Virus record (IMG/VR): IMGVR_UViG_3300002835_001090
Span: 1 to 23,829 of that record
Strand: one strand, 5' to 3'
Length of the DNA: 23,829 nt
From: a virus
Positions 12,771-23,829 of the stretch are shown here, piece after piece. Each line of letters begins with the position of its first letter. Position 1 is the first letter of the stretch. A program made the translations under genes and the position numbers. Below the pieces are notes generated by a model. It worked only from the letters and a program-made list of their open reading frames with translations, was not told where the DNA came from and made no database searches.

Positions 12771-12783
12771 ATATTTATAAATA
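12771..12783 (+). promoter_or_regulatory. T4 late-type promoter, ATATTTATAAATA
   Basis: This stretch contains both ATATTTAT (12771-12778) and a perfect T4 late promoter octamer TATAAATA (12776-12783). It starts just after the previous stop and ends 10 bases before the ATG at 12794. If it acts as a T4 late promoter, the transcript would begin only a few bases before the start codon, giving an almost leaderless mRNA. It would drive the three genes up to the terminator at 14510. Confidence 0.55.
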
Positions 12784-12793
12784 AAAAGAAATT

Positions 12794-12982
12794 ATGACCA
12801 ATAACAAACAACAAGAAACCGAACTTCAAGCAAGATTAAATTCTTTTTTGAATACAAATAAAAATCAAGAATGTTCCGGAGAAGAATGTGAAATTAAAAA
12901 CCCGGAAGAAATTGTTAAAAGGGAACATAAAAAAATAATTACCAGTGATGGTAGACAATTACTAAGTGAATACACAATCTAA
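12794..12982 (+). CDS. Small hypothetical protein (62 residues)
   Basis: This is a short acidic/polar protein, Gln-, Asn-, Glu- and Lys-rich, with two Cys in CSGEEC and no membrane segment. It is accepted because it follows a late-type promoter directly, has a good A-rich start context, and ends two bases before the next ATG. Its function is unknown. Its grouping with the two tagged proteins downstream suggests the same late, possibly virion-related, expression unit. Confidence 0.6.
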   Translation: MTNNKQQETELQARLNSFLNTNKNQECSGEECEIKNPEEIVKREHKKIITSDGRQLLSEYTI

Positions 12983-18218: not shown

Positions 18219-18231
18219 ATATTTATAAATA
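18219..18231 (+). promoter_or_regulatory. T4 late-type promoter before the helicase N-half, ATATTTATAAATA
   Basis: This is the same 13-base sequence as at 12771-12783. It holds ATATTTAT (18219-18226) and TATAAATA (18224-18231) and ends 14 bases before the ATG at 18246, in the short gap after the preceding gene. A late-type promoter in front of a replication helicase would be notable; it may supplement read-through from upstream. Confidence 0.5.
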
Positions 18232-18245
18232 ACAAGGATTAAAAA

Positions 18246-19583
18246 ATGACAAAAAATGTTACTTTAGGTTATCTGGGATATAAATTCCAAATGGAGCTTA
18301 TAAACCAAATTTTACATCCGGCAAATAAAAAATTCTCCGAAAGGATTATTGATATCGTACACGCAAGGTATTTTGACAATGAATATTTTCGTCTCATCGT
18401 AGCCCAAATTAAGGACTACTATGAAAAATACGAAAAGGTTCCTACAATTGACACTTTAGAAACTATTCTTAGAATAGAAGTTAAAGATAAAGTCACCCAG
18501 GACTATGTTTTTGAAATGTTAAAAGAAATCAATAATCTTGCCGTTCAGGATTGGGAATTTATCCAACAAAAATCTTTAAACTTTTGTCGTCAGCAAGAAC
18601 TTAAAAAGGCAAACGAAAAAATAAACAAAATCATTGATAACGGTGATTTTGATAGTTATGAAAAATGTGCTGAAATTTTAAGAGAAGCTCTTTCTGTTGG
18701 TTCGGAAAAAGATGATGGAACATCTATAAGTGAAAACATTGAAGCAGTTTTAGAAAAGGATTTTAGACATCCAATTCCTACGGGAATAAATGGTATTGAT
18801 GAGTTAACCGATGGTGGTTTATCACGAGGTGAACTTGGTGTTGTATTAGCTCCATATGGTACTGGAAAAACCACAATACTAACCAAAATCTCAAACAGTG
18901 CTTACAATGAAGGTTATAATGTTTTACAAATTGTTTTTGAAGATATGCCAGATGTTATTAAAAGAAAACATTTAGCATGTTGGTCTGGAATTGAATTAAA
19001 TGAATTATCTGACAGAAAAGAAGAAGTTTTACAAAAACACAAAGAAGTAACAACTAACAAAACAAACGATTTAAAAATTAAAAAGTTTTCTTCTGAGGGC
19101 GTAACAATTCAGGCCATTAAATCTTTTATTAGACATGAGATATCAAAAGGTTTTAAACCAGATTTGGTGGTTTTAGATTATATTGATTGCGTTGAATCTT
19201 CAAAAATATATTCTGATGAATGGTCTGGTGAAGGTAATGTTATGAGAGGCTTTGAATCAATGTTAAGTGAATTTGGTTTGGTTGGTTGGACAGCTGTGCA
19301 GGGAAATAGATGTGTTACCCTAGATACCGAAATAGATGTGTTGAATAAAGGTAAAATCCAAATTAAAGATGTTGTTGAAGGTGATGAAATTTTAACCCAT
19401 AAAGGTTATAAAAAGGTTATAACAAAATTCCCTGTAGAAAAACAGGGTGTTTATAAGATAACAACCAAAAGTGGTAAAGTTATTAAAGTTTCAAATAAAC
19501 ACGAATTCCCAGTTAAATATGGTAAATTAAAATCTATTAAAAATGGTTTATCTGTTGGGGATGAATTATTTATAAAAAAATAA
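18246..19583 (+). CDS. 41: gp41/DnaB-like replicative helicase, N-terminal half fused to N-intein
   Basis: The ORF has 445 residues: 355 of helicase and 90 of intein. The helicase part has a helical N-terminal domain (1-150), then a RecA-like core: Walker A APYGTGKTT (202-210), catalytic-type Glu in VFEDMP (E232), Walker B LVVLDYID (307-314), and the start of motif H4, AVQGNR (350-355). At that Arg the sequence turns into an intein. The missing end is encoded by 20993-21310, 1.4 kb downstream beyond an endonuclease gene. The spliced product would be 461 residues, close to T4 gp41 (475). The enzyme unwinds DNA ahead of the replisome as a hexamer. Neither half alone has a complete motor, so trans-splicing should be essential. 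Confidence 0.93.
   Translation: MTKNVTLGYLGYKFQMELINQILHPANKKFSERIIDIVHARYFDNEYFRLIVAQIKDYYEKYEKVPTIDTLETILRIEVKDKVTQDYVFEMLKEINNLAVQDWEFIQQKSLNFCRQQELKKANEKINKIIDNGDFDSYEKCAEILREALSVGSEKDDGTSISENIEAVLEKDFRHPIPTGINGIDELTDGGLSRGELGVVLAPYGTGKTTILTKISNSAYNEGYNVLQIVFEDMPDVIKRKHLACWSGIELNELSDRKEEVLQKHKEVTTNKTNDLKIKKFSSEGVTIQAIKSFIRHEISKGFKPDLVVLDYIDCVESSKIYSDEWSGEGNVMRGFESMLSEFGLVGWTAVQGNRCVTLDTEIDVLNKGKIQIKDVVEGDEILTHKGYKKVITKFPVEKQGVYKITTKSGKVIKVSNKHEFPVKYGKLKSIKNGLSVGDELFIKK
19311..19580 (+). other. N-terminal half of a split intein (gp41-type)
   Basis: This 90-residue segment begins with the nucleophile Cys (CVTLDTEIDVLNKG, block A). It continues with GDEILTHKGY and VYKITTKSGKVIKVSNKHEFPV, the block B region with its His, and ends SVGDELFIKK at a stop. 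Length and layout match gp41-type split N-inteins (about 88 residues). The insertion point is directly after QGNR in helicase motif H4. No endonuclease domain is present in the intein itself. Confidence 0.93.
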
Positions 19584-19593
19584 CAAAAAATTT

Positions 19594-19657
19594 GTATTCC
19601 AGTCCACCCGTTAGATATTTATTTATAAAGAAATGAATATATGGGTAGACTTAATAT
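19594..19657 (+). promoter_or_regulatory. Hairpin hiding the start codon of the helicase-associated HEG
   Basis: AGTCCACCCGT (19601-19611) pairs with ATGGGTAGACT (19641-19651) over 11 positions with one C-A mismatch and one G-U pair. An outer GTATT (19594-19598) pairs with AATAT (19653-19657) after a small internal loop. The right arm begins exactly at the HEG start codon. The loop contains ATATTTAT and TATAAAG. The layout parallels the hairpin at 22613-22669 and that of T4 I-TevI. Confidence 0.65.
19615..19622 (+). promoter_or_regulatory. ATATTTAT promoter-like element in the HEG 1 hairpin loop
   Basis: The octamer lies 18 bases before the ATG at 19641. It is followed by TTATAAAG, whose last eight bases differ from the T4 late consensus near the 3' end. 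A transcript starting downstream of it would lack the left hairpin arm. Confidence 0.45.
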
Positions 19658-20855
19658 AGAACAATTATTGAATAAGAAAATTTTTAAAGAATTAGACTTA
19701 AATAAAATAACAGAAAAACAAATGTCAGAGATATATAAAGTGTTGGATGTTTTTGATACTAAAACGATTAAAAATCGTTTGGTAAACATTAGAGATTTTA
19801 TTAAATATGGTGTGGAAGACGATTGGTTAGGTAGAATAGAAATTATTAGAAATACTATAAAAAATGACGTTACATCAGATTATTCTCTAGAAATTAGATA
19901 CGGTAAAAATAATATCGACAAAATTAAGTCTTCTTTTAAAGAAAAATATTCAATAACAAAAAATAAATTTATAAATAAATTCGGCGAAATAGAAGGACCA
20001 AAAAAATGGGAAGAATATTTAGTGAATAGTAAAACACCTTGGGGTTTGGGGTTATGTATAAATAAATTCGGCGAAATAGAAGGACCAAAAAAATGGGGAG
20101 AAAGGTTAAATAAAAAAATTAAAACCATGTCCGAAAGGAAAAAAATTAAACCCTACAGAAATGGTAGAACTTTAGTGGAGTACCAAAATAGGTATGGTGT
20201 TGAACTTGGTTTTAAGTATTGGGATGAAAGAAACAAAAGACAAAGTTATGTTAACAGTAAAGAGTATTATGTTAGTCTTTATGGTGAAATAGAAGGACCA
20301 AAAAAATGGGAAGAATTTACTAAATCAATGGATAAAACTTCTTTAAAATCTTTTAAAGGTAGGCACGGTGATGAGGTCGGGGAAAAACTTTACGAAAAAC
20401 ACATTACTCGAATAAAATATACCAGTACAATAGATTATTATAAAGAAAAATATGGCGATGAATTAGGGGCTTTAAAATACCACAACCTTTTATTACGTAA
20501 ATTAGTTAGTTTTAATGGTTATTCTAAAATATCACAACAATTATTTTGGTCTATTTATGAAAAATTTAACGGTGATGTGTCTGATATGTATTTTGCTGAA
20601 TTAAATGATGAGTATGTTATTTACACACATGAAGAATGGTCTAGAGTTATTAAACTAGATTTTAAGTTTGGTAATAAAATCATAGAGTTTGACGGTGATT
20701 ATTGGCATTCTAAACCCGAACAAATAGAAAAAGATAAATTAAGGAATGAGTTTTTATTATCTAAAGGATATGAATTACTTAGAATAAAAGAGGGTGAATT
20801 TCGTAAAACCCCTTTATTAATTACAGAAAAATGTTTAAAATTTATAACACAATGA
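19641..20855 (+). CDS. Free-standing homing endonuclease, Vsr-like (EDxHD type), inside the split helicase gene
   Basis: This 404-residue protein lies between the two helicase halves. Residues 110-284 hold six copies of a motif of the form aromatic-x2-[KR]-[YFH]-G-x-E-x-G-x-K-x-[WY] (starts near 110, 139, 181, 210, 238 and 267), probably the DNA-recognition region. The C-terminal domain (about 295-395) resembles very-short-patch-repair endonucleases: KLDFKFGNKIIEFDGDYWH (338-356), then KDKLRNEFLLSKGYELLRI (364-382), with acidic and His residues spaced as in the EDxHD family found with fractured phage genes. It should cut helicase alleles that lack the insertion, near the QGNR site, and so spread the unit. 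Its start codon lies in a hairpin, and its stop overlaps the C-half start (ATGA), so both are probably translated from one message. Confidence 0.85.
   Translation: MGRLNIEQLLNKKIFKELDLNKITEKQMSEIYKVLDVFDTKTIKNRLVNIRDFIKYGVEDDWLGRIEIIRNTIKNDVTSDYSLEIRYGKNNIDKIKSSFKEKYSITKNKFINKFGEIEGPKKWEEYLVNSKTPWGLGLCINKFGEIEGPKKWGERLNKKIKTMSERKKIKPYRNGRTLVEYQNRYGVELGFKYWDERNKRQSYVNSKEYYVSLYGEIEGPKKWEEFTKSMDKTSLKSFKGRHGDEVGEKLYEKHITRIKYTSTIDYYKEKYGDELGALKYHNLLLRKLVSFNGYSKISQQLFWSIYEKFNGDVSDMYFAELNDEYVIYTHEEWSRVIKLDFKFGNKIIEFDGDYWHSKPEQIEKDKLRNEFLLSKGYELLRIKEGEFRKTPLLITEKCLKFITQ
19971..20010 (+). repeat. 40-base direct repeat in HEG 1, copy 1
   Basis: It is identical to 20058-20097 at a distance of 87 bases (29 codons, in frame). 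It encodes the INKFGEIEGPKKW unit. Confidence 0.9.
20058..20097 (+). repeat. 40-base direct repeat in HEG 1, copy 2
   Basis: It is identical to 19971-20010. The near-absence of silent changes points to recent duplication or conversion within the gene. Confidence 0.9.
20286..20316 (+). repeat. 31-base direct repeat in HEG 1, third related copy
   Basis: It is identical to 19986-20016, exactly 300 bases upstream (100 codons). It encodes the GEIEGPKKWEE unit. Confidence 0.85.
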
Positions 20856-20992
20856 AAGAACACGATTTAAATATTACCGATTTTGATATGGATGAAATAG
20901 TTTCTATAGAATTTATTGGTGAAGAAGAAACGGTAGACATTACCGTAGAGGATACACATATGTTTTATGGTAATGATATATATACCCACAAT
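20852..20992 (+). other. C-terminal half of the helicase split intein
   Basis: The 47 residues end VDITVEDTHMFYGNDIYTHN (blocks F and G) with the penultimate His and terminal Asn needed for cleavage. The next residue is Ser, the +1 nucleophile. Length and pattern match gp41-type C-inteins. Confidence 0.93.
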
Positions 20993-21313
20993 TCATCTAT
21001 ATCAGCTGACGTTGTAACAGGTGACCAAATGGGTGGTTCTATTAAGAAAGCACAAATCGGTCATTTTATTATGTCAATTGCAAGAACTTTACCACAAAAA
21101 GAATCTGGTAGAGCAACACTTGCAGTTTTAAAATCACGTTTCGGTAAAGATGGTGTCATTTTTGATGACTGTACTTTTGATAACGGAAAAGTATATATTG
21201 ACACCGAAAGTTCACAAACCTTCTTGGGTTATGAAAAGAAACAAGAAGAAAGAAAAGAAAGTCATGTTCGAGAAAGAATTCAACGAGCAAAAGAGTTACA
21301 AAAAGGAAAATAA
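20852..21313 (+). CDS. 41: C-intein fused to the C-terminal half of the gp41/DnaB-like helicase
   Basis: This is a 153-residue ORF: 47 residues of C-intein and 106 of helicase. It begins at the ATG in the ATGA overlap with the endonuclease stop. A start at 20831 (seven residues longer) is possible but lies deeper in the endonuclease gene. The helicase part begins SSISADVVTGDQMGGS and continues IKKAQIGHFIMSIARTL and VLKSRFGKDG, the DnaB motif H4 end and C-terminal region, and joins directly to AVQGNR of the N-half. A charged helical tail follows (EERKESHVRERIQRAKEL). Translation coupled to the endonuclease would tie the supply of this half to endonuclease expression. Confidence 0.92.
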   Translation: MKEHDLNITDFDMDEIVSIEFIGEEETVDITVEDTHMFYGNDIYTHNSSISADVVTGDQMGGSIKKAQIGHFIMSIARTLPQKESGRATLAVLKSRFGKDGVIFDDCTFDNGKVYIDTESSQTFLGYEKKQEERKESHVRERIQRAKELQKGK

Positions 21314-21341: not shown

Positions 21342-22598
21342 ATGGAGATTTCAAATAAAATACTCTCAGACATAACTGTCTATATGAAGTACGCAAAGTA
21401 TGTTCCAGAGTTAAACAGAAGAGAAACTTGGGAAGAATTGGTGACCAGAAATAAAGAAATGCACCAAAAAAAATACCCACAACTTAAAGAAGAAATAGAA
21501 AAAGTTTATCAATTGGTTTATGATAAAAAAGTTCTTCCATCAATGAGGAGCTTACAGTTTGGTGGTAAACCAATTGAGATTAGCCCAAATAGGATCTACA
21601 ATTGCGCTTATTTGCCAATTGACCATACAGATGCTTTTGCTGAAACAATGTTTTTATTGTTAGGTGGTACAGGTGTTGGGTATTCAGTACAAAAACATCA
21701 CGTAGATAAGTTACCTGAAATTAAAAAACCAAATCCAAGTAGAACTAGAAGATATCTTATCGGAGATTCAATCGAAGGTTGGGCTGACGCAATTAAAGTA
21801 CTTATGGAATCTTATTTTGGTGGTAAATCATCAACACCAGTATTTGATTTTTCTGACATCAGACCAAAAGGAGCTAGATTGGTAACATCTGGTGGTAAAG
21901 CTCCAGGACCACAACCACTTAAAGATTGTCTTCATAATATTAAAAAAGTTTTGGATAACAAAGAAGACGGTGAAAAAGTAACACCTATTGAAGTTCATGA
22001 TATGGTTTGTTATATTGCTGACGCAGTATTGGCGGGTGGTATTCGTAGAGCAGCTTTGATTAGTTTATTTTCGGCTGATGATGATGAGATGATTGCTTGT
22101 AAATCAGGTAACTGGTGGGAACAAAACCCACAAAGAGGGAGAGCTAATAATTCAGCGGTATTGGTACGTCATAAAATTACACAAGATTTTTTTATCGACC
22201 TTTGGAAACGTATTGAACTAAGTGGAGCTGGTGAACCAGGTATCTACTTAACTAACGATAAAGATTGGGGAACCAATCCTTGTTGTTTTATTGGTGATAC
22301 TAAAATAGATTGTGGTAACGATGTTAAAACTATTAGAGATATTGTAAAAATGATTAACTCAGGAGAAGAAATCGAGTTACCAACATTTAACATTGAAGCA
22401 GGGATTATCGAAAATAAAAAAGTTGTTGCCGGACAACTAACTAAAAAAGATAGTTCAGTTATTAAATTAACTATAGATGTTAATGGTATTGAAAAAGAAA
22501 TAACCTGTACTGATGACCATAGATTTTACACAATTAATAGAGGTTGGGTTGAAGCTAAAGATTTAACAGAAGTGGATGATATACAAGAAATGAAATAA
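21342..22598 (+). CDS. nrdJ: Class II (NrdJ-like) ribonucleotide reductase, N-terminal part fused to N-intein
   Basis: The ORF has 418 residues: 314 of reductase and 104 of intein. Reductase features are MRSLQFGGKP (68-77), IYNCAYLPID with candidate reducing Cys C88, FLLLGGTGVGYSVQ (104-117), AGGIRRAALI (231-240), and TNPC ending at C314, the candidate thiyl-radical Cys. In the joined protein the next active-site Cys (FCNLCEV) follows 11 residues later. This is the spacing of C408/C419 in the Lactobacillus adenosylcobalamin-dependent enzyme and shorter than in E. coli NrdA, so class II is favoured. The enzyme makes deoxynucleotides for phage replication and would need host cobalamin. It follows the helicase C-half by 28 bases. 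Confidence 0.88.
   Translation: MEISNKILSDITVYMKYAKYVPELNRRETWEELVTRNKEMHQKKYPQLKEEIEKVYQLVYDKKVLPSMRSLQFGGKPIEISPNRIYNCAYLPIDHTDAFAETMFLLLGGTGVGYSVQKHHVDKLPEIKKPNPSRTRRYLIGDSIEGWADAIKVLMESYFGGKSSTPVFDFSDIRPKGARLVTSGGKAPGPQPLKDCLHNIKKVLDNKEDGEKVTPIEVHDMVCYIADAVLAGGIRRAALISLFSADDDEMIACKSGNWWEQNPQRGRANNSAVLVRHKITQDFFIDLWKRIELSGAGEPGIYLTNDKDWGTNPCCFIGDTKIDCGNDVKTIRDIVKMINSGEEIELPTFNIEAGIIENKKVVAGQLTKKDSSVIKLTIDVNGIEKEITCTDDHRFYTINRGWVEAKDLTEVDDIQEMK
22284..22595 (+). other. N-terminal half of a split intein (NrdJ-type)
   Basis: These 104 residues start CFIGDTKIDCGND (block A nucleophile Cys). They continue with a longer insert (VKMINSGEEIELPTFNIEAG), then KEITCTDDHRFYTINRGWV (block B/His region), and end at a stop after DDIQEMK. 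The insertion point is directly after the active-site Cys of NPC. The layout resembles NrdJ-1-type split N-inteins and differs clearly from the helicase N-intein. Confidence 0.92.
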
Positions 22599-22612: not shown

Positions 22613-22669
22613 TTTTTACCTACCTCCCATATATTTATATAAAAAACATTATGGGAGGTAAAGTAAAAA
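22613..22669 (+). promoter_or_regulatory. Hairpin hiding the start codon of the reductase-associated HEG
   Basis: TACCTCCCATA (22621-22631) is a perfect reverse complement of TATGGGAGGTA (22650-22660). Beyond a small internal loop, TTTTTAC (22613-22619) pairs with GTAAAAA (22663-22669), giving up to 18 bp of stem. The start codon ATG (22651-22653) and the following GGGAGG lie in the right arm. The loop holds ATATTTATATAAAA. Read-through mRNA should hide the start; mRNA initiated in the loop should not. Confidence 0.75.
22631..22638 (+). promoter_or_regulatory. ATATTTAT promoter-like element in the HEG 2 hairpin loop
   Basis: The octamer lies 12 bases before the ATG at 22651, within the 20-base loop region. 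It continues ATAAAA rather than the full TATAAATA, so it is a variant of the proposed phage promoter. Confidence 0.45.
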
Positions 22670-23619
22670 AGGGTAGTCTTAAAAATAGGGGTTATATTGG
22701 GTACCATGAAACATGGGATAATAAAAGGGTGTTTTTAAGAAGTAAGGCTGAATTTATTGTGGCAAAGATGTTAGACATTGAAAAAATACCATATTTAACC
22801 GAATTTAAGGATTATAGGATAAACGGTGTTGGTTATAGACCAGATTTTTTCATATTTGAAAACACACAATACAGTAGTATTACTAAAATAATAGAAGTTA
22901 AGGGACAAGACAATAAGCGTGAAGCTTTAAGATATAAAGAAATTTTTGGTGATTACTTTGAAAATATTGGTATAACATATAATGTTATTTGGAACTTACA
23001 CCCAATAATAAAAAAATATAATATAGATAATGATGTTAGTAATTGGATACAAACTTCAGTAGATAAATACGATAGTATATCTGATGTGAGTGGTGAAAAT
23101 AACCCTATGTTTAACAGAAAACATACTGAAAATACGAAAAAAAAGATTTCAGATTTAGCTAAAGAAAGAACTACAAATGTTGATTACAGGAAAAAAATGT
23201 CTAAAGCACAAAAAGATTTTTGGGAGACACAAAAAGGGGTAGAGTTAAAAAAAATTATATCAGATAGGATGAAAAAAGAATATGAATTAAAAAACCCTAT
23301 CATAAAATATAATTGTAACAAATGTGGGTTAGAATTTAATAAAAGAAAAAATGATGATAGAATTTTTTGTTCAACAAAGTGTGAAAGAGAATGGAAGTAC
23401 GCTAACATTGATGGATATGGTAAACATATGAATAAAATCGATGGATATAGAAAAAATATATTAACATATATTGATAAGATATTAAATTACTACGAGCTTT
23501 CACAAGAAGAATTTTTTACTAATCTAACTAATGTGGTAAATAAGGCTAAACAAGACGGGGTTATACCAAAAAATAAAGGCATAACACATGAAACATTAAA
23601 AAAATATAACATAAAATAA
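22651..23619 (+). CDS. Free-standing homing endonuclease, PD-(D/E)XK type with NUMOD3 and zinc finger, inside the split reductase gene
   Basis: This 322-residue protein lies between the two reductase halves. The nuclease core is residues about 25-120: SKAEFIVAKML (E34), then YRPDFFIFE (P64-D65), then IIEVKGQ (E82, K84), the PD-(D/E)XK arrangement. Residues about 148-171 match NUMOD3, a DNA-binding module of phage homing endonucleases (GENNPMFNRKHTENTKKKIS). A zinc-finger-like C222-x2-C225 and C240-x3-C244 follows (YNCNKCGLEFN, FCSTKCERE). The C-terminal 70 residues are basic and helical. It should cut reductase genes lacking the insertion, near the active-site Cys codon. The nuclease family differs from that in the helicase. 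Its start codon lies in a hairpin (22613-22669), and the C-half ORF begins 13 bases after its stop. Confidence 0.83.
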   Translation: MGGKVKKGSLKNRGYIGYHETWDNKRVFLRSKAEFIVAKMLDIEKIPYLTEFKDYRINGVGYRPDFFIFENTQYSSITKIIEVKGQDNKREALRYKEIFGDYFENIGITYNVIWNLHPIIKKYNIDNDVSNWIQTSVDKYDSISDVSGENNPMFNRKHTENTKKKISDLAKERTTNVDYRKKMSKAQKDFWETQKGVELKKIISDRMKKEYELKNPIIKYNCNKCGLEFNKRKNDDRIFCSTKCEREWKYANIDGYGKHMNKIDGYRKNILTYIDKILNYYELSQEEFFTNLTNVVNKAKQDGVIPKNKGITHETLKKYNIK

Positions 23620-23632
23620 AAAAAACAAAAAA

Positions 23633-23740
23633 ATGGCTAGATTAAAAAAAATTGAATATTTAGATGAAAAACACGATGTTTATGATATTGAAGTAGAGGA
23701 TAATCATAACTTTTTTGTCGAAGGGGTTTTAGCTCATAAC
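23633..23740 (+). other. C-terminal half of the reductase split intein
   Basis: The 36 residues end VYDIEVEDNHNFFVEGVLAHN (blocks F and G, read from Val 16 on), with penultimate His and terminal Asn. The +1 nucleophile is Cys, whereas the helicase intein uses Ser. The length is close to other NrdJ-type C-inteins. Confidence 0.92.
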
Positions 23741-23829
23741 TGTGAAATTGCATTGAGACCAAATCAGTTTTGCAACTTATGTGAGGTAAATGCTAGTGAT
23801 ATTGAATCACAAGAAGATTTTGAAGAACG
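23633..23829 (+). CDS. nrdJ: C-intein fused to the C-terminal part of the class II ribonucleotide reductase (3' truncated by window end)
   Basis: The ORF starts at ATG 23633 in a strongly A-rich context (AAAACAAAAAAATG) and stays open to the end of the window. The first 36 residues are a C-intein. The rest begins CEIALRPNQFCNLCEVNAS and joins directly to TNPC of the N-part, giving NPC-CEI...FCNL, the reductase active-site loop. The Cys of FCNL would be the second reducing Cys. The remaining catalytic barrel and C-terminal redox tail must lie beyond the window. Confidence 0.92.
   Translation, partial: MARLKKIEYLDEKHDVYDIEVEDNHNFFVEGVLAHNCEIALRPNQFCNLCEVNASDIESQEDFEE

Follow-up and report, generated by a model that had tools for sequence, protein, structure and literature searches.

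A start-codon hairpin nesting a putative late promoter on a homing-endonuclease gene between split-intein halves of a phage reductase

The reductase locus and its hairpin

A virus record, IMGVR_UViG_3300002835_001090 of IMG/VR, carries a predicted hairpin over the start codon of a homing-endonuclease gene that lies between the two parts of a class II ribonucleotide reductase gene, nrdJ. The stretch analysed (positions 1 to 23,829 of the record, here called the window) is a linear record of 23.8 kb with about 30% G+C, and its gene content includes gp32-like, UvsX-like, helicase, class II reductase and large baseplate-type genes. Two genes in it are fractured, a gp41-like helicase and NrdJ, and a split intein cuts each. 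In both, the order is a gene fused to the N half of the intein (IntN), an endonuclease gene, and a gene fused to the C half (IntC). The features of the reductase locus are as follows.

21342..22598, + strand: NrdJ N-part (class II ribonucleotide reductase) fused to split-intein N half
22613..22619, + strand: outer left extension TTTTTAC (fold)
22621..22631, + strand: left (5') arm of the putative inhibitory stem, TACCTCCCATA, perfect complement of 22650-22660 (sequence, fold)
22631..22638, + strand: ATATTTAT, putative late-promoter element of the lineage, ending 12 nucleotides (nt) before the ATG (8-mer enrichment, virion-gene association)
22640..22647, + strand: predicted transcription start zone; transcripts from here would be without the left arm (analogy with host -7 element spacing)
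22650..22660, + strand: right (3') arm TATGGGAGGTA, holding the start codon (sequence, fold)
22651..23619, + strand: free-standing homing-endonuclease gene with a PD-(D/E)XK-like N-terminal domain and a NUMOD3/I-TevI-type DNA-binding region
22663..22669, + strand: outer right extension GTAAAAA (fold)
23633..23829, + strand: split-intein C half fused to NrdJ C-part, extending past the window end

An earlier note on this DNA, made from the letters alone, had described an 11-bp perfect stem extended by TTTTTAC/GTAAAAA, with the ATG in its right arm and a promoter-like element in its loop. Sequence and fold agree exactly with the stem and its extension, the outer pairing being separated from the 11-bp stem by a 1x2 internal loop, and the ATG (22651-22653) does lie inside the right arm. 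The loop occupies 22632-22649; the element as first delimited, ATATTTATATAAAA (22631-22644), falls mostly within it, but its first base belongs also to the left arm. The stem region begins 15 nt past the stop codon of nrdJ-IntN. The start codon at 22651 is supported by the motif GGKVKxG, which comes shortly after the initiator Met in homologues.

For the 101-nt region the predicted fold has an energy of -22.5 kcal/mol (z -2.7), a value equalled by 3 of 200 shuffles, and when only the left arm was shuffled the duplex stood at z -3.7 (p 0.005, matched by 0.5% of trials). Ranked against 499 ATATTTAT sites on both strands of nine contigs, the nested stem at 22613-22669 comes second. Its stem score of 38 exceeds those of all 318 other gene starts bearing TATTTAT, none of which reaches 35. 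No terminator-like site was found, a scan for sigma-70 promoters gave matches no more often than chance, and the window has no Rfam match to a known RNA family. A further predicted hairpin, TCTTAAAAATA...TTTTTAAGA, lies within the endonuclease coding region (22676-22740); its short-transcript fold has z -3.2, and it is weaker in the relative L003.

The protein matches NUMOD3 (E 8e-7) and the I-TevI DNA-binding domain 1i3j (E 2e-4), and these matches, together with its location between split-intein halves, mark it as a protein of the homing-endonuclease type. A VRR_NUC match fell below the cut-off. In the predicted model, strands and helices follow one another as in PD-(D/E)XK enzymes, and a fold search gave no significant match, the best including PD-(D/E)XK enzymes and none lying below E 0.03. 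The suggestion that the nuclease belongs to a different family from I-TevI is probable, given a PD-(D/E)XK-like fold joined to a DNA-binding region of the NUMOD3/I-TevI type, but the nuclease assignment is weak. A group I intron around the gene had no Rfam match in the window at the gathering threshold; the flanks are intein halves.

The loop motif and the late genes of the lineage

Besides the window, 12 related contigs were examined, chosen for holding homologues. ATATTTAT heads the list of over-represented upstream 8-mers in G001, G010, G004, G006 and the window, and it ranks among the top five in G007. It is strand-specific: 10-19 nt before the ATG, 155 sense copies face 7 antisense copies (1537 genes), with an A-rich stretch after it and an A/T block 13-15 nt upstream. 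Among virion genes, identified by sheath, gp25 and gp23 profiles, the gp25-like baseplate genes have ATATTTAT in front in 11 of 11 contigs (nine distinct), and tail-sheath genes have it or the 7-mer TATTTAT in front in eight of nine, at a variable distance of 21-51 nt. The window's own large baseplate-type gene is preceded by ATATTTAT at 286-293. No copy stands before gp32-like, UvsX-like or RNase H-like genes in the contigs examined, and none of 80 nrdJ loci has the late motif in front.

Judged by these associations, ATATTTAT is the putative late promoter of this phage lineage, and what had been called promoter-like in the loop is the promoter-like motif of the lineage's virion genes, beyond a mere AT stretch. 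The T4 gp55-type late promoter, TATAAATA, is not the lineage's element. A PHROGs search of 20 motif-bearing proteins did not reveal their function.

The -7 element of Bacteroidetes is TAHHTTTG (PMC6847099), which ATATTTAT resembles with the last G replaced by A. By this analogy we suspect a Bacteroidota host and a late sigma factor of the phage, and with -7 spacing transcription would start near 22642, a position within the loop and past the left arm. Another element, TATATTTG, is like the host -7 element and enriched upstream of genes in G001 and G006, and may mark early promoters. The helicase genes of two other contigs are also preceded by ATATTTAT, unlike gp32, UvsX and nrdJ. In the window, ATATTTAT at 12771-12778 lies ahead of a 62-aa open reading frame (12794-12982), possibly a late gene.

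A second hairpin and compensatory change in relatives

The fractured helicase gene has a hairpin of the same design.

18246..19583, + strand: DnaB/gp41-like helicase N-part with split-intein N half
19591..19660, + strand: second hairpin, over the helicase-endonuclease start codon (fold z -4.8; left-arm shuffle z -4.4)
19615..19622, + strand: ATATTTAT in the second hairpin, ending 18 nt before the ATG
19641..20855, + strand: Vsr/MTES_1575-like homing-endonuclease gene between the split-intein helicase halves
20831..21313, + strand: split-intein C half with helicase C-part

Covariation of the stem in homologues had been raised in the earlier note, and in relatives the stem is indeed maintained by compensatory change. 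Homologues of the helicase endonuclease are about 50% identical; most of their starts are paired, with arm letters that are unrelated (TGCCCCCATCTAA/TTAGATGGGGGTA in L098, TGCGGTTAACTTTTT/AAAAAGTTAACTGCA in L105, and a 23-bp stem in L092). Within this family, the left arm native to a gene pairs better than one taken from a relative (p 0.003). A stem is present at the junction in every NrdJ-endonuclease relative (L003, L268-L279), that of L274 being weak, and the loop of the stem holds TATTTAT except in L270/L271. In L268 the right arm has gained two extra codons, with a matching change in the left arm.

The stems also carry a wobble bias. When G.U and A.C were scored equally, endonuclease stems held 62 G.U against 30 A.C, and controls 104 against 93 (difference p 0.013). 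This points to RNA rather than DNA as the level of action, because a DNA palindrome would give no strand bias of G.U over A.C. Opening the start region of the NrdJ endonuclease is predicted to take 17.5 kcal/mol when the RNA is long but 1.5 kcal/mol when it is short and lacks the left arm; the corresponding values for the helicase endonuclease are 17.4 and 2.3 kcal/mol.

Recurrence across endonuclease genes

Endonuclease genes were chosen by Pfam profile, blind to structure, giving 51 non-redundant genes, which do not count as phylogenetically independent. ATATTTAT lies near the start in 30 of the 51, compared with 209 of 1449 other genes (odds ratio 8.5, p 1e-12). The expected number of pairs across the presumed start site is 20.7 for the endonuclease genes and 10.0 for other motif genes (p 4e-13), and the cross-start pairing is significant for free-standing endonuclease genes alone (p 2e-7). 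Shuffling of the left arm gave significance at 0.05 for 17 of the 30 endonuclease genes, as against 19 of the 209 controls; nine of 39 endonuclease genes, but none of 318 other motif-bearing genes, had a stem score of at least 35. Endonuclease and other motif genes were told apart by the strength of cross-start pairing but not by how much more accessible the ATG alone becomes in the short RNA than in the long one (p 0.24). The genes with the design include GIY-YIG, HNH, NUMOD3-type and Vsr-like ones, free-standing genes among them, and the letters of their stems are unrelated.

In one contig (G008, about 59500-59850, minus strand), a GIY-YIG gene opens in a perfect hairpin of 19 bp (TTGTGATTTCCATTATGTA.../TACATAATGGAAATCACAA) that has no ATATTTAT.

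Discussion

We consider it likely, with a probability of about 0.78, that the hairpin acts in cis as an RNA timing switch for the endonuclease gene between the split-intein reductase halves. The results support the reading given in the earlier note and widen it. Long RNAs reading through from nrdJ would hold both arms, so that the start codon would be paired and the endonuclease not made, while both reductase halves on the same long message would remain translatable. Late in infection, a polymerase with the phage's late specificity would initiate at ATATTTAT within the hairpin. With a predicted start site between the two arms, the resulting short transcripts would lose the left arm; with a short A-rich leader and an open AUG, they would give the endonuclease. 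Pairing of the ATG is plausible as an off state, because in Flavobacterium initiation is tuned by start-region structure and upstream adenines, not by Shine-Dalgarno sequences (PMC6847099). Early silence would spare the host gene and time the cutting to replicating, recombining DNA. The in silico pattern comprises the stem, the nested motif and its identity with the virion-gene element, compensatory evolution, the wobble bias of RNA type and recurrence on other endonucleases; beyond it we infer the start site, its timing, the effect on translation and the activity of the protein as a homing endonuclease.

Several observations weigh against such a switch. The motif occurs outside the virion genes too, the helicase gene itself carrying it at 18219-18226 of the window, and two gp23-like capsid genes are without it. 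Exact ATATTTAT is missing near the start in 21 of the 51 endonuclease genes, 13 of the 30 that bear it do not reach significance on their own in left-arm shuffling, and hairpins over the start also occur on some ordinary late genes. Hiding of the start codon itself is not universal, because in L270 and L272-L275 the stem stops just before the ATG and does not enclose it. The split-intein endonuclease of the cultured Aeromonas phages Aes123 and AS-gz is without the nested hairpin design.

The stem could instead be a constitutive damper of translation, with ATATTTAT an initiation element rather than a promoter and no switch in time. The narrow distance of the motif, mostly 10-19 nt, from many start codons would suit this. 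We find it improbable nonetheless, given that only about one in seven genes (209 of 1449) has the motif, that its distance at tail-sheath genes varies as described above, and that nrdJ, gp32 and UvsX genes are without it; a plain translation element was rejected on the minority of genes served, the nrdJ loci and the sheath distances. Slightly less probable still is an RNA-processing or 3'-end protecting element (an RNase site or stabiliser) of the upstream nrdJ N-part message. Its closeness to the nrdJ-IntN stop codon and the relatives in which the stem lies before, not over, the ATG would fit, but free-standing endonuclease genes have the same stem, a nested promoter element would not be needed, and no terminator-like site accompanies it.

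The symmetry about the promoter element, and the published autorepression of I-TevI through an operator at its late promoter, make one consider an inverted repeat acting as DNA, an operator bound by the endonuclease or another protein. This is unlikely: genes whose proteins are about 50% identical have arms of unrelated sequence, the excess of G.U over A.C is the signature of an RNA strand, and the hairpin has no similarity to the intein insertion site. As an I-TevI-like operator resembling that site the hairpin was rejected, its best 20-nt match being no better than shuffles. AT-only inverted repeats of similar length do occur elsewhere in the window, as a chance repeat in AT-rich DNA would lead one to expect; such an origin is already disfavoured by the comparison of homologues, in which the stem is kept, and with its rank of second among 499 motif sites and its score above 318 of 318 control starts we regard chance as highly improbable.

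Fractured genes with split inteins and an endonuclease between the halves were reportedly described by Dassa et al. in 2009, and they share with the present locus the order of IntN gene, endonuclease gene and IntC gene, and host genes of phage type. We know of no expression switch described for them.

The timing switch proposed here is of the I-TevI kind. A hairpin in long RNA with a late promoter has been described for T4 I-TevI, I-TevII, I-TevIII and segB and for mobE of Aeromonas phage Aeh1, and sequestration of the start region for the T4 late genes e, soc and 49 (PMC2988022, PMC3014915). In I-TevI (td intron), I-TevII, I-TevIII and segB, a hairpin in the long early RNA hides the start region, and a late promoter between left arm and start yields open RNA. 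The I-Tev genes differ in lying in group I introns, with the late promoter TATAAATA and Shine-Dalgarno based initiation, whereas the window combines split inteins with ATATTTAT and has the ATG paired within the stem. The earlier note had equated the two switches; the analogy is apt, but the closer published parallel is mobE, a free-standing endonuclease gene that splits a reductase gene (nrdA) and has a late promoter and an RNA hairpin over its translation start (PMC2988022, PMC3014915). There the split has no intein, the hairpin hides the ribosome binding site, the nuclease is HNH and the phage is a T4-type Aeromonas phage. Genes e, soc and 49 likewise hold their start region in an RNA helix, and late promoters within the structure of gene e give well-translated RNA, but these are not mobile-element genes. 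In seg43(25) of Aeromonas phage 25 a stable hairpin lies directly upstream of the start, not over it, as in L270 and L273-L275; the description consulted mentions no nested late promoter. The present system is neither a T4-promoter nor a group I intron system, and its novelty lies in the phage lineage and its promoter, in the use of split inteins and in the range of nuclease families covered.

We lean towards the view that in this phage lineage at least four nuclease types, free-standing and split-intein, independently gained or kept a hairpin around a late promoter, and that late-only expression is a general, convergent requirement of endonucleases in or beside early essential genes rather than a T4 peculiarity. 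The hairpin would carry a switch known from a few T4-like endonuclease genes over to an uncultured lineage that uses a different late promoter, does without Shine-Dalgarno sequences at its starts and has split inteins; with the same design on many endonuclease genes of related phages, it looks like a recurring rule. This suggests wide early silencing of selfish endonucleases in essential genes, and it allows the start site and time of expression to be predicted for dozens of genes. A start-codon stem that encloses ATATTTAT may serve as a signature of late-timed endonucleases in metagenomes.

Other features of the split-intein loci

The downstream intein halves of the helicase and NrdJ are probably initiated differently, because the IntC-half gene of the helicase shares 25 bases (20831-20855) with the end of the endonuclease gene before it, and the NrdJ IntC half begins after a gap. 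In L027 (2656-5649) the intein of the same reductase gene is uninterrupted and about 378 aa long, and its insertion point (NP|CC) precedes that of the split intein (NPC|C) by one codon. In L008 (4415-4540) a split-intein endonuclease has its GTG start in a strong hairpin, the loop of which holds CATAAATA, one base off the T4 late element.
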